Below are positions 38,434 to 54,245 of a DNA stretch of 64,000 nucleotides, in pieces. Source of the stretch: Bimuria novae-zelandiae CBS 107.79 (Eukaryota > Ascomycota > Dothideomycetes > Pleosporales > Didymosphaeriaceae). The position numbers were made by a program, and so were the translations under genes. The notes beneath the pieces were generated by a model. It was not told where the DNA came from and searched no databases. It saw only the letters and a list, made by a program, of their open reading frames with translations. Location: positions 379,898 to 443,897 of the forward strand of contig ML976673.1 of the NCBI GenBank assembly GCA_010015655.1. The letters run 5' to 3'. Position 1 is the stretch's first letter. Each line of letters opens with the position of its first letter.

Positions 38434-38827
38434 GTCTGCGTCTGCGTCTGCCCGGTGGTTCTGGGCAAGGACAGGCTCGGTGATGGGTACTGCTTAAGTA
38501 TATCGTGGTATGGCAGATGTGGGTGATAACGTATATGGAATAGTACTCGTGGTGTTTTAGTGGCTTTTGGGGAGGGTGTGCAGGTTCGTGGCTAGGCTCC
38601 GTGGCGTATAGCGAGCGTACACCCCTGGACCAAGAGGACGGATAACATGCAATAAGAGATTTCTCAATGGGTGATGCTCACGCTGCTAGTGAACTCGTCG
38701 GCGACGATAGCATAACTTGTGCTTCGACTTTCGGGGTGATCTGGTTCAAGACTTGCATCAAACCTACATCGCCATCTAAGCAAGTTCCCTCGCTGCACCC
38801 ACACTCTAATATGCAAAGTTAAGCGTA
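38434..38827. other. 3' flank of transporter up to the transposon end
   Basis: No gene. The last two bases (TA, 38826-38827) form the left half of a TA duplication flanking the inverted repeat. Confidence 0.5.
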
Positions 38828-38868
38828 ACGTCCCTCCCTGCGTGCTGGGACACCCTTCGTGCTGGGAC
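38828..38868 (+). repeat. left terminal inverted repeat of the 15.3-kb island
   Basis: 41 bp beginning at the TA. The TIR contains an internal direct repeat, CGTGCTGGGAC, twice, which probably represents two binding sites for the transposase's paired helix-turn-helix domains. Its partner is 54102-54142. Confidence 0.85.
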
Positions 38869-39400
38869 GCGAATATTATTTTCGCATCCTAACTCTCTTC
38901 CCCTTCAATACTTAGAGTTGCAGTTAACGTCGTATTATTCTTTATAGATCTAAGCTCCTAACTCTAGCTAACAGCAGCAAAATTACAACAATGCTGATCA
39001 TGTTGTTGATCGTTCTGTCTACCGCGTATAACCCCGCTCTACCTTTACACCTCTACACGGCCACAGTTATTGACAGAGTTTCGAGCGTCGGTGCGTTGAG
39101 ATGATAGCCTTGTTAAATAAGATTATTTTTCTTAACTCAGAAATCACTTTATCTATCTGAGTGTACAATGCGAGTTTCTCCGAGCTTAGAGGCAGGTTGG
39201 GTGTCTTGGCAGAACACCTTAGCGCGCTTATGTAGCTCTGTATCAAATTTTACACTATGCCAGAAACAATCGAGTAGTGGCGCTCTTCTCGAACCTTCCA
39301 GCTGGTACCACGTGCGAGTTATTTTGGGCACATTTTCCGGGCTTTCTACGGCATGTCACGTGCGGGCTAGCCTGAGGATTGAGCCGCTCTCGTCGTTGCG
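38869..39400. other. 5' region of the pogo-like transposase
   Basis: About 530 bp between the left TIR and the transposase ATG. No ORF of note; presumably the leader and promoter. Confidence 0.5.
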
Positions 39401-41110
39401 TTGAGGATGTCTAGGGGCAATGGTTTGGCCTTGCGCATCACCACCACCGCGATCATGGACCGAGCCAGCCAGGCGCTGGCGGAAGTCTTCTCTGCAGGCG
39501 AGTCTGCGCCGTACCGTGCAGTTTCAGAGAAGAGTAGTGTTCCCCGCTCTACGCTCCATCGTCGTAAACACGGTGGAGCGTCGATGGAGCTCAAGGCCCA
39601 AAGCCAGCAATACCTGACCCCAGACGAAGAGAAAGCTATGGTCAAGTTTTTGTTACTAATGTCTAGTTTCGGGCACCCTGTACGAATTAAATACATACCT
39701 TCGCTAGCCTTCAGCATCGCTCGTCGGCGGTCTACGGTGATCAAACCAATCAAGCCACCGGGCAAGAACTGGGCTCGGGCCTTCGAGCGACGCCACAAGG
39801 AACTCAAGGCGAGAAAGGTCAGGGCTATCGACTGGAAACGCCACGAGAACAATATATATCCTAAGATCGCCGAGTGGTTTGAGGTGATAGAAAAGGTGCT
39901 GCAGGATCCTGCTATACTGTCAGAGAATGTTTACAACATGGACGAAACAGGAGTCATGCTAAGCAAGCTTAGCTCGGTTAAAGTCCTTGTAGGTAGAGAT
40001 GACTTGCGGGACTACAGAGGCGCAGGCGTCAAGCGCACTATGGTGACTGCAATAGAGTGCATAAGCGCTGACGGTAGGTCGCTGCTGCCTCTGATAATCT
40101 GGCCAGCCGCAACCCACCGGAGCAACTGGACTACTTATCCTACCCCTGGATGGCATTATGGGCATTCTGGAAACGGATATAATGACTCAAAGATCAGCTT
40201 AGAGTGGCTAGAACGTGTTTTTAACCCGCAAACCAAAGTACTGGCTAATGGAAAACCACGGGTGCTGATCTGCGATGGCTTTGGGACACACGAGACCCTG
40301 GAAGTCCTGGAGTTTTGCCTTGAGAACAACATTATTCTTTGTCGTCTTCCCTCTCACACGTCCCACAAGCTCCAGCCCTGTGACGTCGGGCCCTTCGCCC
40401 CGCTGAAGACAGCCTACCGTGACCAGGTAGAACGCCTAAACCGAGGTGGCATAGAGAATATTGGCAAGGAGCATTTTACCGCTCTTTATAAGCCTGCAAG
40501 GGACAGTGCGCTGACCAAGAGGAACATCCAGGCCGGGTGGGCTGCAACCGGGTTGTTTCCATTCAACCCAGAGAGAGTATTCAGGAATACACCAAAGCCG
40601 CTAGCTCAACTACCAGTTCCTGGCGCCGATGAGGTAGAGGTCATTCCTCATACGCAAGACGAAGTACCCCAAACGCCTGTAACGCCTGTGACAGCAGAGG
40701 CTCTTATACCGTTGCATAATCTGATCAAACAGGACGCTCATGCGCTTGATGAGATAAGCCAGCAGCGCTTACAGAGGCATGTACAGAAACTCACACGTGC
40801 TGCCCGAGTGTCGTTTGCCGAATGTGCCCTACTTCAGGACCAGAATCAGTCCTTAATCAAGATAAACAAAGAAGCAAAAGTTCGTCGGTCAACAAGGTCA
40901 GTGGTCCTAGGGAAAGCAAAGGTGATGAGCTTTGAAGACCTTGAAGAGGCTCGAGCGAAATGTGCTGCAAAGGAGAAAACATCCTTAGGCAAGGTGAAAC
41001 GCGGTCGCAAGCGCAAGGTTCTTGTACTAGAGACGGGTGTAGCAGAACTAGTGGTGCAGATGAGCGAAGCACCAGAGCGATGGAGGGCGCCGGTGGCACG
41101 AATGTATTAG
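39401..41110 (+). CDS. pogo/Fot1-like transposase, intact (DDE_1, CENP-B type)
   Basis: 569 residues without stop or frameshift. The N-terminal psq-type helix-turn-helix (about 12-55, SQALAEVFSAGES...VPRSTLHRRKHG) is followed by a CENP-B/Tc5-type DNA-binding domain with RNWARAFERRH-like sequence (here GKNWARAFERRHKELKARK). The DDE core shows NMDETG (first Asp), ICDGFGTHE (second) and LQPCDVGPFAPLK (third), with 35 residues between the second and third Asp, the fungal Fot1 spacing. The basic C-terminus (RGRKRK) may be a nuclear signal. It catalyses cut-and-paste excision and TA insertion. Unlike the neighbouring pogo relics at 45.8-51.8 kb it shows no RIP-type stops, so it is younger or was spared. 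Confidence 0.93.
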   Translation: MRMSRGNGLALRITTTAIMDRASQALAEVFSAGESAPYRAVSEKSSVPRSTLHRRKHGGASMELKAQSQQYLTPDEEKAMVKFLLLMSSFGHPVRIKYIPSLAFSIARRRSTVIKPIKPPGKNWARAFERRHKELKARKVRAIDWKRHENNIYPKIAEWFEVIEKVLQDPAILSENVYNMDETGVMLSKLSSVKVLVGRDDLRDYRGAGVKRTMVTAIECISADGRSLLPLIIWPAATHRSNWTTYPTPGWHYGHSGNGYNDSKISLEWLERVFNPQTKVLANGKPRVLICDGFGTHETLEVLEFCLENNIILCRLPSHTSHKLQPCDVGPFAPLKTAYRDQVERLNRGGIENIGKEHFTALYKPARDSALTKRNIQAGWAATGLFPFNPERVFRNTPKPLAQLPVPGADEVEVIPHTQDEVPQTPVTPVTAEALIPLHNLIKQDAHALDEISQQRLQRHVQKLTRAARVSFAECALLQDQNQSLIKINKEAKVRRSTRSVVLGKAKVMSFEDLEEARAKCAAKEKTSLGKVKRGRKRKVLVLETGVAELVVQMSEAPERWRAPVARMY

Positions 41111-41516
41111 GACGGTGTTAAAGCACAAGTGTTACTAGTATTAGACACGCGTTGTTGTTGCAAGAACACCTTTTCATAAAAAATCATAATACATCAATAT
41201 TAACTGACTTACGACTGTATGAACGTTCAGTTGTCCCCATGTGCCTCTAGTTATTGCGAGTTAGCGCTAGGCGGGGTACAGAGAACGCAGGGCTAGAAAG
41301 AAAAGCGGATTGCGGCAAAATATATTTCCGAAACCTTTTGGACCCTACACCCGTGATGCTGCAGCGCTTAGCTGCGCCTCCTCTCAGCCTTGCGACAGCC
41401 GAAGACGGACTGCAGTACTTCTCCCGGCCTGGGTGCGGCCTCGCAGCTCAGTAAACCTACGACGTTGCGAACCCCAATTAACCAGCATACTACGTCTATA
41501 TCGCACGCATCGCACT
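41111..41516. other. region between transposase and NLR
   Basis: About 400 bp. It was checked for a right-hand TIR matching the left end and none was found. It probably holds the NLR promoter. Confidence 0.5.
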
Positions 41517-44500
41517 ATGGATGGTCTTTCGGGCGCAGCAAGCGTTATCGCTGTGATCGACATGTCTGCCAAGATCACCGCGCTCTGCTTCCAGTACTCC
41601 GTCGCCGTGAAAGACGCAAAGAACGACATCGAACGTATTGGAAAGAAAGTTAGCAATATCAAGCGCGTTCTAGAAAGCATTAAGAAGCTGTTAGACGGAC
41701 TACATAAAGCGAGACTCTCTACCACTCATGGCTTGTTCAAGTCACTCAAGCAATGCTTGCTGGAGCTGCAGAGGCTGGAGGAGAAGCTGGAGCCGAGTAA
41801 GACTCGTAAAGCCATGAGCAAGTTTGGAATGCGAGCTTTAAAGTGGCCGTTTACTAGTAAGCAGGTGGAGAAGATCGTAACAAACATGAATAGTTACGAG
41901 CAAACCTTTACGCTAGCGCTCCAAGTTGATCAGACGCAAGTTTGATATTCGCTTCCTTCTAGCGCTAGCAAAAGCGGCTAACTAATTCTCAGGGACCTAA
42001 TCCTGGGCTTTGACCAAAAGCTTGACCTAGCGGCTCAGGACGCCTACATTCTGCATCGAAAGCTAGTCTTGACCGCACTACCCGCCGCCGAAGGGGCATC
42101 TTACGACTCCCATGCAGAAGAGCACAACGCACGATGCCTATCAAACACTCGCACTAAGCTGCTGGACGAGATCACAACATGGGCGAACGATAAAGACGGC
42201 AAATCCATATTCTGGCTAAACGGTATGGCTGGCACAGGAAAGTCGACCATTGCGCGGACGATTGCTCAGTCGTTTGCCGATCGCAGACAACTAGGAGCAA
42301 GCTTCTTCTTTAAGAAAGGCGAAGGTGAGCGCGGCAATGCCTCGCGGTTCTTTACCACCATCGCTAGCGACCTAGTGAAGCACGAGCCAGGTATACTAGC
42401 CGGGATCAGAAAGGCGCTCGACGAGGACTCGGCTATTTCGCAGCGGGCTCTAAAAGACCAGTTCGAGAAGCTGATCCTGCACCCACTCCTAGAGATAAAA
42501 GAGGCTCACTCGCAGGCATTATGGCGAATTATCGTAATAGACGCACTGGACGAGTGTGAGCGAGAGGAAGACGTTCGAGCGATCCTCCAGCTGCTTGCTC
42601 GGACGAAGGACATGCAGCCAGTGCCGTTACGGATCGTAGTCACGAGCAGGCCTGAGCTTCATATCCGCCTCGGCTTCAAAGAGATGCCGAACGGCACATA
42701 CCAAGACCTAGTCCTCCATGAAGTGCAAAAGAGTACGATTGAGCATGATATACGCTTGTTCCTGGAGCATGAGCTTGGTGTGATTCGAAAAGAACGCATG
42801 CTATCCTCAGACTGGCCAGCGAAAAACCAGATCCTCGTGCTAGTTGAGCTGGCTGTGCCGCTGTTCATCTATGCTGCTACTATGTGCCGGTATATTGGTA
42901 GCAAAGGAAGTAATCCCACAGCTTTTCTGAACAAGGTCCTGCAGTATCAAAAGGCGACCTTTTCGCAACTAGATCGGACGTACCTCCCTGTTCTCGATCA
43001 GCTGCTTAGTGAGCAAGAGGAAGATGAAAAGGAGACATGGCTTCAGGGGTTCCGAGACATCATAGGCAGCATCGTGGTTCTAGAGAGTCCGCTCTCTATT
43101 ACCTCGCTCGCATGCCTTCTTCGACTCTCCCAAGAGGAGGTAAAATGTCGGCTTGACTCTTTGCACTCCGTCCTTAGCGTCCCCAACAGCGAGGATGTTT
43201 CAATTAGGCTCTTGCATTTGTCCTTTCGTGAGTTCCTTATTGACCCCCAAAGACAAGGGAAAAGCCCGTTCTGGGTAGACGAGAAAAGCACACACAATAA
43301 GCTTGCATCTCGCTGCCTTGAGCTTATGTCCAGGCAAAGCGGTCTTCGTCAAGACATGTGCAGCCTCGTAGGCCCTGGAGTGCTGAGGAGCGAGATCGAC
43401 GATAGGACCGTTGCTAGCAGTCTGCCACCTGAACTCCAGTATGCTTGCCGCTACTGGGTCAATCATCTTAAGCAGTGTCAGCAAGAAATCATCGATAGAG
43501 ACGCAACACATCTCTTTCTTCAGAAGCACCTTCTTCACTGGTTAGAGGCCATGAGCCTTATAAGAGAGTTAAGCAGATGCGTCTACTTACTCGATAGTCT
43601 TCAAGCACTTACAGGTGTAAGTTCTATACAGAATCAGTCTTGGTGCTATGCTAATGTGTAACGCAGCCATCTGCAAGCGTTGTTCAAAGCTTTCTTTACG
43701 ACGCTAAGCGCTTTGTGCTGCGATATCAGTATATACTTACAGAAGCTCCACTACAGATTTATTGCTCTGCGCTTATATTCGCGCCTGAGAAGAGTCTGAT
43801 ACGGCAGACATTTGCGGATCAAGTGCCACAGTGGGTAAAGATGGTGTCAATGAAGGAGATGGATTGGGATGCTTGTCGCAGCACACTGGAGGGCCATTCC
43901 TCAGGAGTCACGGGGGTGGCCTTCTCGCCAGACGGGCGGCTGGTTGCGTCAGCATCTTATGACAACACAGTACGGCTGTGGGAGGCGACGACAGGGACGT
44001 ATCGCAGCACGCTGGAGGGCCATTCTGAGCATGTTAGGGCAGTAGCCTTCTCGCCGGACGGACAACTGGTTGCATCAGCATCTGACGACAAGAAAGTACG
44101 GCTGTGGGAGGCAGCAACAGGGACTTGTCGCAGCATACTGGAGGGCCATTCCTCTACAGTCTTGGCGGTAGCCTTCTCGCCAGACGGGCAGCTAGTTGCA
44201 TCAGGATCCGAGGACAAAACAGTTCAGCTGTGGGTGACAGCAACAGGGACTTGTCGCAGCAAATTAGAGGGCCACTCCTCTACAGTCTCGGCGGTGGCCT
44301 TCTCGCCAAACGGGCAGCTGGTTATGTCAGGATCCGCGGACAAAACAGTACGGCTATGGGTGGCGGCGACAGGGACGTGTTGCAGCACGCTGGAGGGCCA
44401 TTCCTCAGGAGTCACGGGGGTGGCCTTCTCGCCAGACGGGCGGCTGGTTGCGTCAGCATCTTATGACAACACAGTACGGCTGTGGGAGGCGACGACAGGG

Positions 44501-45814
44501 ACGTGTCGCAGCACGCTAGAGGGTCATTCTGATGATGTCGAGGCGGTGGCCTTCTCACCAGACGGGCAACTAGTTGCGTCGGGATCCTGGGACAACACAG
44601 TAAGGCTCTGGGAGGCAGCGACAGGGGCGTGCTGCAGCACACTGGAGGGTCATTACTCAGGAGTCAACGCGGTGACCTTCTCTCCAGACGGGCAGCTTAT
44701 TGCGTCAGCATCCTTGGACAACACAGTACGGCTGTGGGAGGCAGCGGTAGGGACACGGAACAGTATGCTGGAGGGCCATTCTAAGTATGTTAGGGCGATA
44801 GCCTTTTCGCCGGACGGGCAACTGGTTGCGTCAGCATCCTCGGACAACACATTACGGCTGTGGGAGGCAGCAACAGGGACGTGTCGCAGCACGCTAGAGG
44901 GCCATTCCTCGCAGATCAGGGAGGTGGCTTTCTCGCCAGATGGGCAGCTGGCCATGTCGGCATCTCATGATAAGACAATACGGCTGTGGGAGGCAGCGAC
45001 AGGGACGTGTCGCAACCTGTTAGAGGGCTATGCTACGAATCTCGACACAGCAGTCTTTTCGCTAGATGGGCGACTAGTTGCATCAGCATCCGACAACAAT
45101 ACAGCACGGTTGTGGGATGTAGCGACAGGAACGTGTCGCAGCACGCTGGAGGGTCATTCCTCACAAGTCATAGCGGTGGCTCTCTCTCCAGACAGACAGT
45201 TTGTCGCGTCAGCATCCTCAGACGCCACAGTACGGCTGTGGGAGGCAGCAACAGGGACTTGTCGCAGCATACTGGAGGGCCATTCCTCTACAGTCTGGGC
45301 GGTAGCCTTCTCGCCAGACGGGCAGCTAGTTGCGTCAGGATCCGAGGACAAGACAATACGGCTGTGGGTGACAGCAACAGGAACCTGTTGCAGCATACTA
45401 GAGGGCCATTCCTCTACAATCTCGGCGGTGGCCTTTTCGCCGGACGGGCAACTAGTTGCGTCGGTATCGTGGGACAACACAATACGGCTGTGGGAGGTAG
45501 CGACTGCGACGTGTTGCAGTACGCTGGAATTTCATTCCTCCACAGTCAGCGCGGTAGCCTTCTCATCAGATGGCCGGGCCCTTCACACTGATGCAGGCGA
45601 TATATCTTTGCTGTCACCCCCAGTTGTGCTGTCGCCTCTTTGGCATCAGACGCAGTCCCCTCACATCTTTCTGCAGGGTCAGTGGATACTTCGCAACCAG
45701 CGACGCTTCCTATGGCTTCCGTCTGAGTATCGATTTGAGTCGAGCGCAGTACGCGAGGATATCGCTTGTCTAGGGCACGCGTCTGGTTGTGTGGTTTTGC
45801 TTAAAATTTTCTAG
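41517..45814 (+). CDS. fungal NLR: HeLo-like N-domain, NACHT, WD40 repeats
   Basis: Three exons: 41517..41935, 41993..43616, 43667..45814; 1396 residues. Intron 1 needs a GC-AG pair (donor GCAAGT) to join LQVDQT to DLILGFDQK; intron 2 is GTAAGT...GCAG. Residues 1-140 (MDGLSGAASVIAVIDMSAKI...) resemble the HeLo-like N-terminal domain. The NACHT NTPase has Walker A GMAGTGKST at about 217-225 and Walker B IIVIDALDE at about 319-327. From residue 751 there are 13 complete 42-residue WD40 repeats plus a partial one, then a conserved tail ending GHASGCVVLLKIF. In such proteins the repeats sense a ligand, NACHT oligomerises, and the N-domain can drive cell death (heterokaryon incompatibility or immunity). 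It is complete and lies inside the TIR island; its stop is 10 bp from transposon A's TA. Confidence 0.93.
43874..45590 (+). repeat. 126-bp tandem repeats encoding WD40 units (13 plus a partial 14th)
   Basis: Thirteen in-register 126-bp units run 43874-45511, and a shortened unit follows at 45512. Units 1 (43874) and 5 (44378) differ at only two bases; units 3 (44126) and 12 (45260) differ at about eight. Most amino-acid change falls at unit positions 10, 11, 13, 14, 27, 29, 31 and 37-39, while LEGHS, AFSPDG and RLW stay fixed. Confidence 0.95.
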
Positions 45815-45826
45815 CGTCGTACATTA

Positions 45827-48800
45827 ACGTGTCCGTGCACCCAATGCACGGATTCAGCCAATGCACGCCGAACATCCGACGCGTCAAAACTCCCTACTTT
45901 CAACACGCGATAACTCCACCAATATGGATCCAATTCAAGCTGCGATAGATGAGATCGAATCGCGAGAACCAGGAGAAGATTTTTTATATATAGAAATTGC
46001 TACCAGATATGGTGTTAATCGATCTACACTCTCACGAAGGCACCGAGGTGTTACCGCGACGCGTGCAGCCAACATAATTAATTAGCGAAAGCTTAACCCA
46101 CAGCAAGAGCAGGAGCTTGTACGATATATCAAAAGGCTCACAGAGAGACATATACCTCCTACTAGAGAGATGATACAGAATTTTGCCTCGACGATAGCAA
46201 AGGAGCCAGTCAGCGAGAGCTAGGTTACCCGCTTTATTAACCAACACAGCATTCATCTTATCTCGCAATAGACCGTCGGCATAGACAGCAATCGCTACAA
46301 AGCTAATTCAGTAGATAAATATCGCCTCTATTTTAACCTTATACACAGCAAGATCGATTAATATCGCATAGATCCTCGTCATATCTACAATATAGATGAA
46401 AAAGGTGTCCTGATCAGTATCGTTGGTAGAACAAAGAGGATATTCAGCAGACGAATGTGGGAGAAGAAGGAGGTTAGGGCATTACTCCAGGATGGCAATC
46501 GCGCGTGGATCACGCTCCTAGCATGTATCTGCGCTGATGGATCAGCTTTGCCGCCAAGCCTTATCTATAAGGCTGCCAACAAGGACATCCAATCAAGCTG
46601 GGTAGAGGATATCAAGGCAGGATATTATAAAGTCTTTATTACCTTATTATCCTCTAGCTGGACGAACAACAATATCGGGCTTGCCTAGCTTAAGCAGGTG
46701 TTTGATTACTGTATAAAAGAGAAGGCTCGACGATTATATTAACTTTTAATTATAGACGGCCACGGATCTTATGTTACTATAGACTTTATTAACTACTATA
46801 ATTAGAATAAGATCCTGCTTGCTGTCCTGCCTTCTTATTTAACTTATACACTTTAGCTACTTAATGTTGCGATGTTTAAGCCTCTATCAACAGCCTACTT
46901 AGTAGAGCTATTAAGATACCTTTATAGAAGCTAGGGCCTAGCTTCTATTACTAAAGGCGACTTCTTTCCCCTATTCTAGAATGCGTGGAAGGCCTCTTTT
47001 AAGGAATTAACTATCCTTAGCTCTTTTAGAGCTACAGGTATATCGCCACCTAATCCTACACCAAACATTAACTTTTCCAGGTCACTAAAAGGTCAATATC
47101 TATTAATTTTTTATTAAAACACGACTTAAATGCCTTCGTAAATCTATTTTCTAGCGTCCTCTTTTAGCTACAGGCGTTGTGGCAGGCGCGCTGCCCTATT
47201 TTCTCTTTTAGCTCCTTAGTAAGCTAAAATCTTTTTAAAATAGCCCGTGCGCCGCTTAGATTTTCACGTTTAGTTAAAGGCTATAACTATAGCTAAGATA
47301 AGAAGATAGTCGTGACACTCCTTACTCTTACAAGATATAGGCACCTACTAGGCCTAAATACAAAGGCTCTCTATGCGAAGAGCCATGGCACGATTTAACA
47401 AAGCACTAGCTCTTAACACCTATAATAATAAGAGCTGCCCGCAGCTCTCTAAAGACTAACTATTAGCGTCCCTAACCTAACATAACACGCAAATAAGGCA
47501 GCCAGCCTGGCCTTATATTATACGACTCTTAGGGATAAAAAAGAAGGACAGGCCTGGCTCTGCCTTCCTACTACACCTATCTCCTTCGACACAGGCATCG
47601 CCAAGCCTGGTACAAAGGCTCTCCTCGCGCAGAGCCACGGCTCCGATTCGACAGAGCACTAGCTCTCTACACCTATTTACTCTTTCCTTTTCTTTCTTCT
47701 CACAGCACTAAACTGCCTCTAAACACACACAAGGGATCCACCCTAAAGTACATATACTGCTTAGTCTCCCTAACGGGAAGGGGAGCTATAGCTTAATATA
47801 GTAATAATACCCGCGTAGGCAAGAAATGCTTTCTAAGGTAGTGCGTTAGTACTATAATTCTATAGCTTAGCACGTCGTATATGCCCTTCGGGAGGCGAGA
47901 TGGTGGACTTAATCCCTATTAACTAGATAAAAAATAAATACTAACCAACTAACCAAGCCACCTGATCCTAACCCTATCCTTAATAGGTTCACCTAGGATC
48001 AAGAATTAGGCAATAGCTCCTTATTAGGGCTTAGCAATCATAACTAAAGAAAGATAAATAGGCTTATACGCTCTACAGTAAGTAATTAAAGTAGTAAGGA
48101 TATATAGAAGCTTCGTTAATTACTCCACCACCTATCTATTAAAAATGAGCTACTTAAGCATGACAACGATGGGCTTAGGCAGGCGCTATCTATTAAGAAG
48201 AAGCGTAATAAGAAGAGTAAAGCTCTAGACCTTTAATAACGCCAGGAGTATTATGGTGGGGCTATCTTATAGTTACTAAGGAAAGTAAGGAAGGCACGTT
48301 ATTATTAATTAATTAAGGAGTAAAAGGATAAGCAGTAGCAGCTTTAAAAAATAAAGATAGCAGAGCTAAAGAAGGCAGCTAAGCTATATAAGGAGAAAAT
48401 CTAGCAAGAAAAGCGTGCAGCGAGAGAGGCAGCGAAGAAGGCAAAGGAGAAGAAGAGAGCTGAAAAGGTAGCTCAGCGCACTGCCCAGAAGTCTGCCGAT
48501 AACGCTAAAAAGGCTCTATAACTATCCTAAAGGAGTAAGAGAAAAGCTTCTTAGCCATCTCCACAGAGCAGAAAGCGTCAGAAACGTGTTGTTGATGCTA
48601 CGGATGTTGGGGAGGCCTTAAAGGGCGCATCTGCTGCCCTAACCAAATCCACACGGAGCGGCCGCGACGTCAAGCTTCTAGATAGATTTAAATAGTGCAA
48701 ATAAATCGCAGCTATCAATTTACTATCCTAGTAGAAAATCTTATAATAATATTGTTTGTGGGTGGTTCTGCAGCCTTATTTCTAATAGAGCGTTTATGGT

Positions 48801-48847
48801 GTTCGGCGTGCATTGGCTGAATCCGTGCATTGGGTGCACGGACACGT
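45827..48847 (+). mobile_element. element A: pogo-like DNA transposon, RIP-decayed, 3021 bp
   Basis: Ends are long inverted repeats beginning ACGTGTCCGTGCACCCAATG, near-perfect for about 48 bp, with TA on both sides (45825-45826 and 48848-48849). The inside reads as a degenerate transposase from MDPIQAAIDEIESREPGEDF (ATG 45924) through NIDEKGVLIS and IDGHGSYVT to a Lys-rich C-terminus ending near 48693. It is broken by many TAG/TAA codons standing where Gln is expected. The third catalytic Asp reads Asn (LNVAMFKPL). TpA excess and CAG-to-TAG changes are the RIP pattern. It inserted immediately 3' of the NLR. Confidence 0.9.
47059..47970 (+). mobile_element. 0.9-kb nested insertion in element A, non-LTR-retroelement-like
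   Basis: The transposase reading ATGISPPNP stops at 47058 and resumes as NPILNRF after 47962. The intervening 912 bp are flanked by GCCACCTAATCCTA (47045-47058) and GCCACCTGATCCTA (47957-47970), a 14-bp target duplication. The 3' end before the second copy is A-rich and carries tandem CTAACCAA units, as in non-LTR retrotransposon or SINE tails. There is no coding capacity. Two related ~65-bp modules (47360 and 47612) each contain a 6-bp stem of GGCTCT paired with AGAGCC. Confidence 0.7.
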
Positions 48848-48849
48848 TA

Positions 48850-51847
48850 ACGTGTCCGTGCGCGTGATGCGCGGGCAACACCAAAACACCCTTAACTTCA
48901 ACACGCGACAACTCCACTAATATAGATCTAATTTAAGCTACGATTAATAATATTAAATTGTTAAAGCTAGGCAAAACTTTCTCGTACACAAAAACTGCTA
49001 CTAAATATGGTGTTATATAGTCTACATTAATCCAAAGGCATAGAGGAATAACGCGCCCTACATAAGTCAAGAACTCTAGCCAGCAAAAGCTTACCCCACA
49101 GCAAGAGGAGGAGCTTGTACGATATATTAAAAGACTCACAGAGAGACATATACCTCCTACTAGAGAGATGATACGGAACTTTGCCTCAATAATAGTAAAG
49201 GAGCCAGTTAGCGAGAGCTAGGTTACCCGCTTTATTAACTAACATAGCATTCATTTTATCTCGCAATAGACCGTCGGGATAGATAGCAATCGCTATAACG
49301 CTAATTTAGTAGATAAATATCGCCTCTATTTTAACCTTCTATATAGTAAGATAGATTAATATCGCATAGATCCTCGTTATATCTACAATATGGATAAAAA
49401 AGGCGTCCTAATTAGTATTGTTAGTAGATCAAAGAGAATATTCAGCAGACGAATGTGGGAGAAGAAGGAGGTTAGAGCATTACTCTAAGATGGCAATCGC
49501 GCATGGATTACGCTCCTGGCATGTATTTGCGCTAATGGATTAGCTCTGTCGCTAAGCCTTATCTATGAGGCTGCCAATAAGGGCATCCAATCAAGCTGGG
49601 TAGAGGATATCAAGGCAGGATATTATAAAGTCTTTATTACCTTATCATCCTCTAGCTAGACAAACAACGATATTGGACTTGCCTGGCTTAAGCAGGTGTT
49701 TAATCGCTGTATAAAAGAGAAGGCTTGACGATTATATCAACTTTTAATCCTAAATAGCTATAGCTCCCACATTACTATAGACTTTATTAACTACTATAAC
49801 TAGAATAAGATCCTGCTTACTATTCTACCTCCTTATTTAACTTATACGCTTTAGCCACTTGACGTTACGATGTTTAAGCCTCTATTAATAGCCTACTTAG
49901 TAGAGCTATTAAATTACCTTTATAGAAGCTAAGGCTTAGCTTTTATCACTAAAGGCGACTTCTTCCTACTATTCTAGAATGCGTGGAAGGCCTCCTTTAA
50001 GGAATTAATTATCCTCAGCTCTTTTAGAGCCACAGGCATATCGCCACCTAATCCTACACTAAACATTAACTTTTCCAGGTCACCAAAAGGTCGATATCCA
50101 TTAATTTTTCGTTAAAACATAACTTAAATACCTTCGTAAATCTATTTTCTAGCGTTATCTTTTAACTTTAGGCGTTATAGCAGGCGCGCTACCCTATTTT
50201 CTCTTTTAGCTCCTTAGTAAGCTAAAATCTTTTTAAAATAGCCCGTGCGCCGCTTAGATTTTCACGTTTAGTTAAAGGCTATAATTATAGCTAAGATAAA
50301 GAGATAGTTATAACACTTCTTACTTTTGCAAGATATAGGCACCTGCTAGGCCTAAATATAAAGGCTCTCCATACGAAGAGCTATGGCACGATTTAATAGA
50401 GCACTAGCTCTTAACACCTATAATAATAAGAGCTACCCGCAGCTCTCTAAAGACTAACTATTAGCGTCCCTAACCTAACACAACACGCAAACAAGGCAGC
50501 CAGCCTAGCCTTATATTATACGACTCTTAGGGATAAAGAAGGACAGGCCTAGCTCTGCCTTCCTACTATACCTATCTCCTTCGACACAGGCATCGCCAAG
50601 CCTGGTACAAAGGCTCTCCTCGCGCAGAGCCACGGCTCTAATTTAATAGAGCACCAGCTCTTTATACCTATTTACTCTTTCCTTTTCTTTCTTCTTACAG
50701 CACTAAACTGCCTCTAAACACACATAAGGAATTTACTCTAATATATATACACTGCTTAGTCTCCCTAACGGGAAGGGGAGCTATAGCTTAAAATAGTAAC
50801 AATACCCGCGCAGGCAAGAAATGCTTTCTAAGGTAGTATATTAGTACTATAATTCTATAGCTTAGCACGTCGTATATACCCTTCGGGAGGCGAGATAGTG
50901 GACTTAATCCCTATTAACTAGACGAAAAATAAATACTAACCAACCAACTAACCAAGCCACCTAATCCTAATTCTATCCTTAATAGGTTCACCTAGGATCA
51001 AGAATCAGGCGATAACTCCTTATTAAGGCTTAGTAATTATAACTAGAGAAAGATAGATAGGCTTATACAATTAGCAGTAAAGAAATAAGGTAGTTAAAAT
51101 ATAAAAAAGCTTCGTTAATTACTCTACTATCTATCTGTTAAAAATGAGCTGCTTAAGCATAATAATAATAGGCTTAAGCAGGCGCTATCTATTAAGAAAA
51201 AACGTAAGAAGAAGGGTAAAACTCTAGACCTTTAATAGCGCTAGGAGTATTATAGTAGGGCTATCTTGTAGTTACTAAGGAAAGTAAGGGAGGCACGTTA
51301 TTATTAATTAATTAAAGAGCAGGAAGATAAGCAATAGTAGCTTTAAAAAGTAAAAATAGTAGAGCTAAAGAAGGTAGCTAAGCTATATAAGGAGAAAATA
51401 TAGCAGGAAAAGCGTGCTGCGCGAGAGGCAGCTAAGAAGGCGAAGGAGAAGGAGAGGGCTGAAAAGGCTGCTCAGCGCGCTGCCCAGAAGTCTGCCCGCG
51501 ACGCTGAAAAAGCTCTACAAGTATCCCAAAAGGGTAAGAGAAAGGCCTCTCAGCCATCTCTACAGAGCAGAAAGCGTCAGAAACGTGGTGTGGATGCTGC
51601 AGATATTGGGGAGGCCTCAGAGGGCGCATCTGCTGCCCCGAGCAAATCTACACGCAGCGGCCGCGACGTTAAGCTTCCAGATAGATTTAAATAGTGCAAA
51701 TGAATCGCAGCTATCAAATTACTACCCTGCAAGAAAAATCTCGTGATAATATTGATCGTGGGTGGTGCTGTAGCCTTGTTTTTAATGGAGCGTTTTTGGT
51801 GTTGCCCGCGCATCACGCGAATCCGCGCATCACGCGCACGGACACGT
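48850..51847 (+). mobile_element. element B: second pogo-like copy, RIP-decayed, 2998 bp
   Basis: It begins ACGTGTCCGTGCGCGTGATG directly after the TA (48848-48849) that ends element A, and ends at 51847 before TA 51848-51849. It has the same orientation and content as A and closely similar sequence, but is more decayed, with more TAG/TAA. The C-terminal transposase part stays readable at about 51400-51690. The left TIR has one repeat unit (GCGTGATGCGCGG) where the right TIR has two, so about 17 bp were lost on the left. It carries the same 0.9-kb nested insertion as A. Confidence 0.9.
50057..50969 (+). mobile_element. 0.9-kb nested insertion in element B
   Basis: Same position in the transposase as in element A. 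The flanking 14-bp duplication GCCACCTAATCCTA is exact here (50043-50056 and 50956-50969). The tail has CTAACCAACCAACTAACCAA, one short unit more than in A, the kind of tail-length change seen in tandem-repeat tails. The insertion therefore predates the split of A and B. Confidence 0.7.
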
Positions 51848-51849
51848 TA

Positions 51850-52066
51850 ACGGCCTGATCTCACGATAAGCATAGTGCAAAATTTATAAGACATACTAGA
51901 CAACTAATTCTACTGCAAGATCCATATTCTGATAGCAGTTTCCTTCGAGGACAACCCTAGCGTTAGAGTTCATACGCTCAAACTACCTCTCAGAGCTAAG
52001 CCACAGTCCTGACAGCCGCTAGAAATAGATTACGCGGCGATGATGACATAAGAGGTGCGGAGCCGC
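51850..52066. other. spacer between elements B and C
   Basis: About 215 bp without a gene or recognised repeat. It is probably original sequence of the TIR island or its cargo's 3' flank. Confidence 0.4.
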
Positions 52067-53733
52067 CACCAGGTGGCGAGCTAATTCGTGATCGGTTTAT
52101 GTAAGCACAACCGCCAAATTTTGTTCTCCTATAGTAATCACCATACAAAGTCGAAATTCCAAGGTTCTTGACGCATATTAACTTGATTTTAAGGCTAAAC
52201 TTAATTTTAAAGCTTAAATCTGACGCGTAGAGCTTAGATTTGGTGTTGAGATCTTAGAATCTCTATAGTATGTAGGATATGTACAGTATATTCACCAGCG
52301 TTGTGAGCGTATCTTCTCGCCGCCAGTTTCTATAAGCCTTTGGCAGCGATCTGGCATCTCCTCAATAAGCTCCCTGATCTTATTGATAGAGATCTCATCC
52401 CATATTTGCCGTAGTATATCCTTGAGGTGTTTTGTAGTCCTATCCTAAGGCGTCTCACCTTTATATAGCTTGTGGAGACGCCTTTTAGCCTTTTCTTTAA
52501 GGATGAGCTAGCATCCTTTTGTAGGATTAAGATCTAGTAACCTCCTTAGGTGTATAAGGAGCCGCACTCCTTGAGATATCTTAAATATACGCGCAACGTT
52601 GTGTTTTAATCTTATATTATATAACAGGTTATTATCTTCTTATAAAATAAGATATTTATAAGGATTACGAGTGCGCGCGTCGTTAAGGATTTTAATATAC
52701 GTAGGTAGTATATGCTCTGTATAGTAGGCTTGCGTTATATGGTTCCCCTGAGGATCTACGTCGACTTTGGGAGGCTTATAAGCCTCCCATTCTTGTACGC
52801 GCTTTTCGTACTGCTAAGAGGACTCATACATCCTTTTGCGAGGTTTCGGCGGAGGCTTAATAACTATAGGCATCTCTTTGTCGTTGTTATAAAAGTAGAG
52901 CTCTAATTTAAAGTCCCAGTTGACGCAGGCGTACATGTGTAAAACCTGACCCCTAGGAGCGCTCCAAGGCTGCATATTAGTGACTTTTCTATATCGTTTT
53001 TGTTGCCCGCGTCGACGCAGCTGACGAGGCTTTTAGAGGCGCTTATATAGGTTAAAATAAGCCTCCTTAGTAAAGAAAACTTGATCCTAGTAACCTATAA
53101 TAGGCAGATTCTTATTCTACTAGCTATACTATACGCGCGTAGCTTTGTTGGCGTCTGTTAAAGGATTACTATAGGGCGCTATGTACATGTAAGCGTTAAG
53201 TCGTTAACTAAAGTTATATTATAACTAACGCTTAGAGAGCTTAACGCTATACTTTTTAGCTTAATAGGTAAGTAGGCGTTAACTATAAGGATTCTCCTTA
53301 GGCTCTACTATATATTTAAGAACTTATATAGGCGTTTAAAAAGCTCTCCCGAGCTTATTATTATTAAGCTTAGCTAAAGGCTTGCGCGTACGCCTTTGCG
53401 CGATCTCTATACCTAGCTTACGTTATTAACGCCTCTAACGTCTGCCTGTAGCCTTAGAGATTTAAAATAGCTTGTTAACGTCGTTAATAGTCTCGCTATT
53501 CGCCTAGTGGCTATAATAGTATAGGTAGGCTGATTTCGTAGGCGTAGTATATTAGATATTAGGTTTAGAGCGTTTAGGCGTTCGCGGCGCGTCGATTAAG
53601 CTGCTTATCGTAGGAATCGGACGAGATTTGGGTGATTGGTGTAAGGGTGAAGTTTTGTTGTAGATGGAGGGGCTGTTGTTGATGGCTAGTGCTGCTTACG
53701 TACACCGATCACGAATTAGCTCGCCACCTGGTG
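52067..53733 (-). mobile_element. element C: Tc1/mariner-like transposon, RIP-decayed, 1667 bp
   Basis: 41-bp inverted repeats start CACCAGGTGGCGAGCTAATT (52067-52107 and 53693-53733), differing at about two positions. On the minus strand a degenerate Tc1-type transposase is readable: SETINDVNKLF (helix-turn-helix part), then DQVFFTKEAYF, an EDNN block where EDGxPSH is usual, and the C-terminal signature KIRELIEEMPDRCQRLIETGGEKIRSQ. Many TAG/TAA codons stand where Gln would be. The flanks do not show the TA expected for this superfamily; only GCC is common to both sides. Confidence 0.85.
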
Positions 53734-54101
53734 CCGCTGGGCGCGAGCCGAGGTACTAATCACCACAGCAATCTTGCGTGAACATGGGCGTCGCAGCGAC
53801 CATGAAGCAAGACATGCTTTGCTGTGTTGTTATATAATTACCAGGACATAACAGCACTGTTTCATAGGTATCGTAGGCGCTAGGAGCGTCAGGGAGGCAC
53901 TGCAGCAAAGCAGGACTATTAGATACAAAAAGAAGACTGCTTGTAACTTTTGCGTAGAGCCGGCAATAACGACGTATTTTTTAGAAAGAAGGATTAAGAA
54001 TTGTTTATAGGTAGCCTAAGTATATTAATAATACTGTCTGATAGCTAATAGCGATATGTGCGAGGAATGTGGTCTGTTTGAATTCGCAGTACCCCTCGTT
54101 T
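53734..54101. other. right interior of the TIR island
   Basis: About 370 bp with no gene. It leads into the right TIR and has no similarity to the left subterminal region beyond the TIR itself. Confidence 0.4.
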
Positions 54102-54142
54102 GTCCCAGCACGGCGGGTGTCCCAGCACACAGGGAGGGACGT
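54102..54142 (-). repeat. right terminal inverted repeat of the 15.3-kb island
   Basis: Inverse complement of 38828-38868 with three mismatches. It ends GGGAGGGACGT followed by TA at 54143-54144. Confidence 0.85.
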
Positions 54143-54245
54143 TAAGTCAGATAAAACACTTCCATTTAACATTGTCCTAGTCCTGCGTATTACGCCAGGA
54201 TAAAGCAACACAGTGGCTGACACCTACTTTATACCTAGCCGTCCG
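54143..54245 (+). repeat. dispersed LTR-like repeat fragment, copy 3
   Basis: Aligns to copy 2 (32901) from the GTTA at the TIR boundary: ...ATTGTCCTAGTCCTG, CCAGGATAAAGC, ACAGTGGCTGACACC, then TTATACCTAGCCGTCCGG. It starts exactly where the TIR island ends, so the island may have inserted at the edge of, or into, this repeat. The remaining sequence to 54672 has no gene. Confidence 0.5.

Follow-up and report, generated by a model that had tools for sequence, protein, structure and literature searches.

The stretch of DNA considered here, referred to as the window, comprises 64,000 nucleotides of the ascomycete Bimuria novae-zelandiae CBS 107.79. It corresponds to C18:379898-443897, on contig C18 of a 77.4-Mb genome of 191 contigs. 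Positions given without a contig refer to the window. At 38826-54144 lies a 15.3-kb segment bounded by inverted repeats, within which a transposase gene of the pogo type is followed by a gene for a NOD-like receptor (NLR). A preliminary description, made from the letters of the sequence, had proposed that this segment is a transposon carrying a complete NLR gene.

The inverted repeat measures 43 nucleotides. Its arms, 38826-38868 on the forward strand and 54102-54144 on the reverse strand, are alike at 40 of 43 positions and are separated by 15,233 nucleotides. Each arm opens with a TA dinucleotide, located at 38826-38827 on the left and at 54143-54144 on the right. The left arm continues with ACGTCCCTCCCTG... 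and has two GTGCTGGGAC boxes; the right end has a subterminal sequence of the right type, GAGGGGTACT. The pair of TA-flanked repeats that had been reported is therefore real, its 43 nucleotides including the TA.

The transposase frame is open for 569 codons (39401-41110, forward strand), and comparison with relatives makes the ATG at 39455 its likely start. The product matches the DDE_1 nuclease family (E=4e-31). Its catalytic triad consists of D181, D292, and D328, and the 35 residues that separate D292 and D328 give the DD35D spacing. Ahead of the nuclease, a helix-turn-helix of the CENP-B/Tc5 type (HTH_Tnp_Tc5) is matched slightly below threshold (E=0.0002; 21.5 bits compared with a cut-off of 22.2). 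The claim of an intact DD35D transposase of the pogo/Fot kind is borne out by the open frame, the DDE_1 match, and the spacing.

The NLR gene is also read from the forward strand and consists of three exons. The first (41517-41935) codes for an N-terminal domain resembling SesA/PigL_N, the second (41993-43616) for a NACHT domain (NPHP3_N, E=2e-31), and the third (43667-45814) for a WD40 domain of at least 13 units of 126 bp, followed by the C-terminus. Joined together, the exons read 1396 amino acids without a stop, provided that intron 1 has a GC-AG border; intron 2 is of the GT-AG type. Three relatives have a GT donor where intron 1 of the window gene (41936-41992) has GC. Judged by its domain matches, the gene has the complete architecture of a fungal NLR, with an N-terminal effector domain, NPHP3_N/NACHT, and C-terminal WD40 repeats. 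It had been described as an intact NLR of the HeLo-like/NACHT/WD40 type. The NACHT domain, the WD40 repeats, and the open frame stand, while the “HeLo-like” label is not supported, as Pfam gives SesA/PigL_N for this domain (E about 6e-6, SesA narrowly passing the cut-off and PigL_N narrowly missing it). A predicted fold of the domain, based on four sequences and with a predicted local distance difference test score of 52.8, was discarded.

The space between the two genes contains no recognizable transposon end. At 41100-42000, no end-like sequence is found at 5 or fewer mismatches in 15 positions, and when the gap is aligned with known ends on either strand, 10 of 11 alignments are indistinguishable in score from shuffled sequence. 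The eleventh, with the C11 end on the reverse strand, has a score reached by 2.7% of shuffles, which is not notable among 11 comparisons. A hidden end at this place was rejected on these grounds, in agreement with the earlier statement that no nearer right end follows the transposase.

Ends of the same design are found throughout the genome. The tip TAACGTCCCTCCCTGYGT occurs 200 times with at most 3 mismatches, compared with 43 times for the reversed pattern. A second pattern, built from the ends of the C15 and C44 elements, occurs 55 times, compared with once for its reverse. The counts below use 133 distinct ends, obtained by merging overlaps between 97 tip sites with at most 2 mismatches and all 55 sites of the second pattern; the 3 listed tip sites that have 3 mismatches were set aside, and about 100 further sites lay beyond the listing. 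Each family end holds two copies of a box with 4-10 shared bases, GTGCTGGGAC being the copy found twice in the window. The sequence of the box varies between elements and agrees within an end. In a hand-picked set of 16 ends, at least 6 bases are common to both boxes in 12, compared with 26 of 240 cross pairs, and none of 20,000 permutations reaches the observed sum. These co-varying boxes are putative binding sites for the transposase.

Close copies of the window ends themselves are rare. The 81-base left end has a single other match in the genome (C49:287522, 90%), and the right end matches that same place and, partially, three others on C1 and C49 (76-90%).

NLR genes are strongly associated with the inner side of family ends. 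The genome has 92 NPHP3_N matches, which represent 82 loci, and 14 NB-ARC matches bring the total to 93 NLR loci. Within 8 kb, a limit chosen by the analyst and applied in both directions alike, NLR loci are found inward of an end 33 times (24 loci) and outward 2 times, where 1.28 are expected each way. Genes with a HET domain, used as a control, are found inward 4 times and outward 2 times, with 2.06 expected (150 matches listed of 325 candidates). Two ends as rare as those of the window, convergent and 15 kb apart, are unlikely to be paired by chance; because of this rarity and the asymmetry of 33 to 2, chance pairing of the repeats was ruled out. Four HET genes do lie inside family ends within 4 kb (C124:139222, C18:824579, C110:82048, and C40:171580), overall not clearly above chance.

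The association is also visible for pairs of ends and for transposases. An NLR lies inside 12 of 18 convergent neighbouring end pairs (at most 30 kb apart; three of the 12 are mismatched), compared with 1 of 19 other neighbouring pairs. Transposases of the near family (50-100% identity) have a NACHT domain within 3 kb in 9 of 15 matches, or 8 of 14 places, two of the matches being at C49. For more distant pogo transposases the figure is 1 of 59, at a C4 locus already counted. These transposase matches rest on 77 of 2,522 candidates scored. In all, 27 of the 93 NLR loci can be linked to the family through a facing end within 8 kb or a near-family transposase within 3 kb; one or two of them may be chance.

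For 13 convergent pairs, both ends were compared over 45 positions. Matching ends are found in 10 pairs (37-45 of 45, compared with medians of 29-32 against other elements), namely the window, C44, C11, C74, C12, C23, C57, C62, C81, and C145. All of these except C145 enclose an NLR locus, as defined by the NACHT or NB-ARC model. A counterpart in content is C44:544590-551563, a 7.0-kb copy with both a transposase and a NACHT domain between matching ends (37 of 45). A further copy of this kind had been named in the preliminary description as something to look for. In contrast, C11:283280-287903 is an NLR-only element of 4.6 kb that has TA at both tips and ends in agreement at 41 of 45 positions. 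Its NLR is 62% identical to that of the window in the NACHT domain and 64% in the N-domain, and no transposase match is found inside. C62:394908-399964 (5.1 kb) has an NB-ARC match in an open frame of 1067 amino acids. C81:139329-144430 (5.1 kb) has HET and NACHT domains followed by ankyrin-like repeats, recognized by eye, with part of the stretch reading N. The receptors in or beside the family include SesA-like plus WD40 (window), HET plus WD40 (C45), HET plus ankyrin-like (C81), and NB-ARC (C62) types.

Some members differ in their dimensions. The inverted ends of C81 (597 bp, 95% alike) and of C23:214200-219244 (about 790 bp, 89%) are both of the right-end type, unlike the 43 nucleotides of the window. 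C57:260095-286186 is a 26-kb pair whose ends are alike over the 90 bases shown, and it encloses a NACHT gene with 73-76% DNA identity to that of C23. C145:59634-64109 is a well-matched pair of 4.5 kb with no NACHT or NB-ARC match inside and with more family ends just outside on both sides.

Evidence for insertion comes from empty sites. The flanks of seven elements were joined over one TA and matched to the genome, with 40 of 285 candidates scored. Among these best 40, 39 are of the C81 type and cross the C81 junction, and one belongs to C62. The joined C62 flanks match C3 at 98.2% over 275 nucleotides, and the C81 junction matches C15 at 91.1% (271 nucleotides) and C45 at 90.1% (273 nucleotides), all without gaps. 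By these matches, the surroundings of C81 are a dispersed repeat and those of C62 a duplicated segment. All three empty sites have a single TA where the filled elements are flanked by one TA at either end. Two sisters of the window copy, C62 and C81, have therefore inserted at a TA and duplicated it. The empty site with one TA that the preliminary description envisaged is found for these sisters and is absent for the window copy among the best 40 of 285, where matches to its own site are absent too, so that this is weak evidence either way. The flanks of C23, C12, C57, and C11 likewise have no match among the best 40, their own places included, and the search is uninformative for them.

Dispersed copies are seen for the decayed NLR element at C23. 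Stretches of 1.4-2.7 kb from its interior match C12 (92% and 85%), C31 (89%), C9 (94%), and C65 (86%), and the other matches listed, which concern its repeat or its ends, are of lesser length or strength. The end type is the same at C12 and C23, and in each the NACHT domain lies about 1.4 kb from one end. Multiplication of an NLR element would be expected to leave such copies.

Family members have probably exchanged cargo, because the similarities of transposases and NLRs disagree, as judged from pairwise figures rather than trees. The transposases of the window and C44 are 70% identical, and the parts of their NLRs that were compared have no match at E 0.001. Those of C15 and C44 are 55% identical, with NLRs 68% alike over 151 residues. 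The two genes may also decay at different rates. The numbers of stop codons in the transposase stretch and in the NACHT match, which differ in length, are 15 and 0 at C45, 30 and 1 at C48, and 2 and 0 at C4. These counts fit receptors being kept while transposases decay; the NLRs of C12, C23, and C100, which are themselves broken, count against it.

The length of the window segment is misleading, because about half of it comes from three elements nested behind the NLR. The first is pogo-like and AT-rich, has inverted repeats of 54 nucleotides (98%), and begins just past the NLR stop codon (45821-48853). The second (48849-51852), also pogo-like and AT-rich, is similar to the first and abuts it directly. 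The third (52064-53736) has inverted repeats of 44 nucleotides (93%). Together they make up 7.7 kb of AT-rich interior with indices like those of repeat-induced point mutation (RIP), and two of them have weak transposase matches (26-27%). Without the three, the segment measures about 7.6 kb, near the 7.0 kb of the C44 sister. Since the two 3.0-kb elements at 45821-51852 lie side by side right after the stop codon, the original 3' end of the NLR transcript has probably been displaced. The transposase, the NLR, and both flanks have a GC content of at least 0.52.

Taken together, these observations make it very probable that the window segment is a member of a family of cut-and-paste transposons, of the pogo superfamily, in which an NLR is the usual cargo. 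Support for a pogo-type transposon with a complete NLR gene comes from the ends and genes of the window, from the C44 copy, and from the empty sites of C81 and C62. The common end design, the matched ends around NLRs, the two single-TA empty sites, the dispersed copies of one NLR element, and the inward bias of NLRs are established. In the mechanism that these observations suggest, the transposase would bind the double boxes at both ends, each end consisting of a conserved ACGTCCNTCCCTG tip and two family-specific boxes. Everything between the ends would then be excised and inserted at a TA, which would be duplicated. Elements with a transposase, such as the window copy and C44, may supply the enzyme in trans to NLR-only elements with compatible boxes, such as C11 and C81. 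After insertion, the NLR would join the repertoire of the host, and the transposase would later be lost to mutation. In the window, the transposase presumably acts on the ends that surround it, and this copy presumably moved as a unit. The cargo may persist because either the fungus or the element benefits from the receptor.

Several observations weigh against this picture. In three of the 12 NLR-holding pairs (C48, C32, and C49), the ends do not match (27-32 of 45); these were counted among the convergent pairs and are not taken as proven elements. Six of the 18 convergent pairs have no NLR by the two models, namely the perfectly matched C145 and five others (C125, C165, C40, C72, and C8). 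The left end of the window is closer to the C49 end (43 of 45) than to its own partner (40 of 45), and the window copy has no empty counterpart among the candidates scored. The placing of the NLR also varies, being downstream on the same strand in the window, divergent from the transposase at C44 and C15, and convergent at C4. Because position and strand differ between copies, the family is not one fixed two-gene transposon. Finally, five relatives (C15, C44, C11b, C24, and C18b) have a family end 0.35-0.73 kb past the transposase. An end in this position had been named in the preliminary description as evidence against the proposal. It is present in these relatives and was not found in the window, and at C44 the NLR lies on the other side of the transposase from the close end, still between paired ends.

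The close ends of these five relatives are also an argument for the strongest alternative. In this model, the segment is a composite, in which a transposase element without its right end lies beside an NLR-only element without its left end. NLR elements with no transposase seen do exist (C11 and C81), and a composite could still move as a unit. However, no trace of an end lies between the two window genes beyond the one weak score in 11 comparisons, and the two window ends agree with each other at 40 of 45 positions, compared with a median of 31 to the ends of other elements. Moreover, the C11 NLR is oriented the opposite way relative to the left-type and right-type ends. A composite origin is therefore considered unlikely.

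Another alternative is that NLRs and transposons merely share repeat-rich compartments of the genome. Both are frequent in accessory regions, and 2 of the 93 NLR loci do have an end near them that faces away. A shared neighbourhood is nevertheless very improbable, given the 33 inner and 2 outer positions of NLRs compared with 4 and 2 for HET genes, the presence of a NACHT near just 1 of 59 distant pogo transposases, and the exact empty sites of two NLR elements. The window flanks also have a GC content of 0.54-0.57, no RIP-like skew, and ordinary domains in four of the five flanking frames tested.

Equally improbable is that the NLR is cargo of a Starship, a giant element with a DUF3435 tyrosine-recombinase captain, and has pogo ends around it only incidentally. 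The passages drawn on from PMC12506042 do name NLRs as one class of accessory genes in Starships. The genome has 102 DUF3435 matches (52 loci, collapsed by hand), and within 25 kb of these lie 3 of the 27 NLRs linked to the pogo family and 9 of the full set of 93, where about 0.9 and 3.1 are expected. For the window this explanation was rejected, as contig C18 has no DUF3435 match among the matches listed, and the empty sites of C62 and C81 break off precisely where the pogo ends begin. C62 rather has the look of an element nested in a segment that adjoins a captain match and that exists empty at C3. A DUF3435 match (C62:406884-408211) is found about 7 kb away from the C62 element, and another (C3:1547250) about 4 kb away from its empty twin (C3:1542535-1542815). 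Some NLRs may become Starship cargo by this route, through the nesting of a pogo-NLR element in a Starship-like segment.

A stronger version of the transposon model can be imagined, in which the NLR is a working second gene of the transposon lineage rather than a passenger. Pogo elements would then repeatedly take up and swap NLRs, since having the receptor helps an element to persist. For example, loss of the element or mixing with non-carriers could be costly, or the NLR could serve the host as a selected allorecognition allele. This version is tentative and rather less likely to be right than wrong. If it were true, a large share of the NLRs of this fungus (27 of 93 loci by the search used) would be borne by or derived from transposons, which would explain their patchiness and rapid turnover of domains.

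Typical Fot elements are about 2 kb long and have a single gene. The family described here resembles Fot1/pogo elements, of the Tc1/mariner superfamily, in its DDE_1 nuclease with DD35D spacing, its TA target, and its terminal inverted repeats. It differs in its length of 4.6-15 kb with an NLR, in the two co-varying boxes of each end, and in the ends of about 600-800 bp at C23 and C81. A parallel exists in the KDZ-type DNA transposons of fungi, a family in which TET/JBP genes, again a single kind of host-type gene, are found time after time; transposase and cargo differ there.

Transposon-borne NLRs as such are already known from Starships and ToxTA, and the comparisons that follow draw on passages of the papers cited. 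Fungal NLRs can be carried by transposons according to PMC9815663, which cites Starship work, and an NLR-HET gene is mentioned as Starship cargo in PMC9594970. Starships move NLRs among other cargo, such as one sesA-NACHT-WD40 gene in one element (PMC12134995). Unlike the window segment, they have a DUF3435 captain and can reach hundreds of kb. ToxhAT, or ToxTA, shares the TA duplication and an empty site (PMC12506042), and it has 74-bp inverted ends and nested transposons and is judged non-autonomous and itself nested in Starships (PMC6737239, PMC12506042). It carries a patatin-TPR gene, and its authors put such proteins in the NLR family (PMC6737239). It is, however, one 14-kb element with eight genes, and in these passages no transposase is shown to move it and it is not described as an NLR-dedicated family. 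The comparison with ToxTA is with its published description. The HNWD/NWD incompatibility genes of Podospora anserina (PMC1805685) likewise combine NACHT with highly similar WD40 units, and the C45 copy is HET-NACHT-WD40. They are not placed in a transposon in the passages drawn on, save one pseudogene behind a transposon relic, and the N-terminus of the window NLR is SesA-like rather than HET. A search of full-text literature, with subscription journals and preprints mostly outside its coverage, gave no title or abstract opening on pogo/Fot elements with NACHT or NB-ARC receptors. What appears to be new here is a pogo family with an NLR as its usual cargo.

Fungal NLRs are patchy in distribution, change fast, and decide the outcome of self/non-self encounters. 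Apparently, ordinary DNA transposons can spread these immune receptors. Such spread becomes testable with a cut-and-paste family whose ends are defined and whose NLRs are of several architectures. End-anchored searches in fungal populations would reveal mobile NLRs, and typing of empty sites would show how often they move. As C62 looks nested near a captain match, the pogo-NLR family may also account for the entry of some NLRs into Starships.

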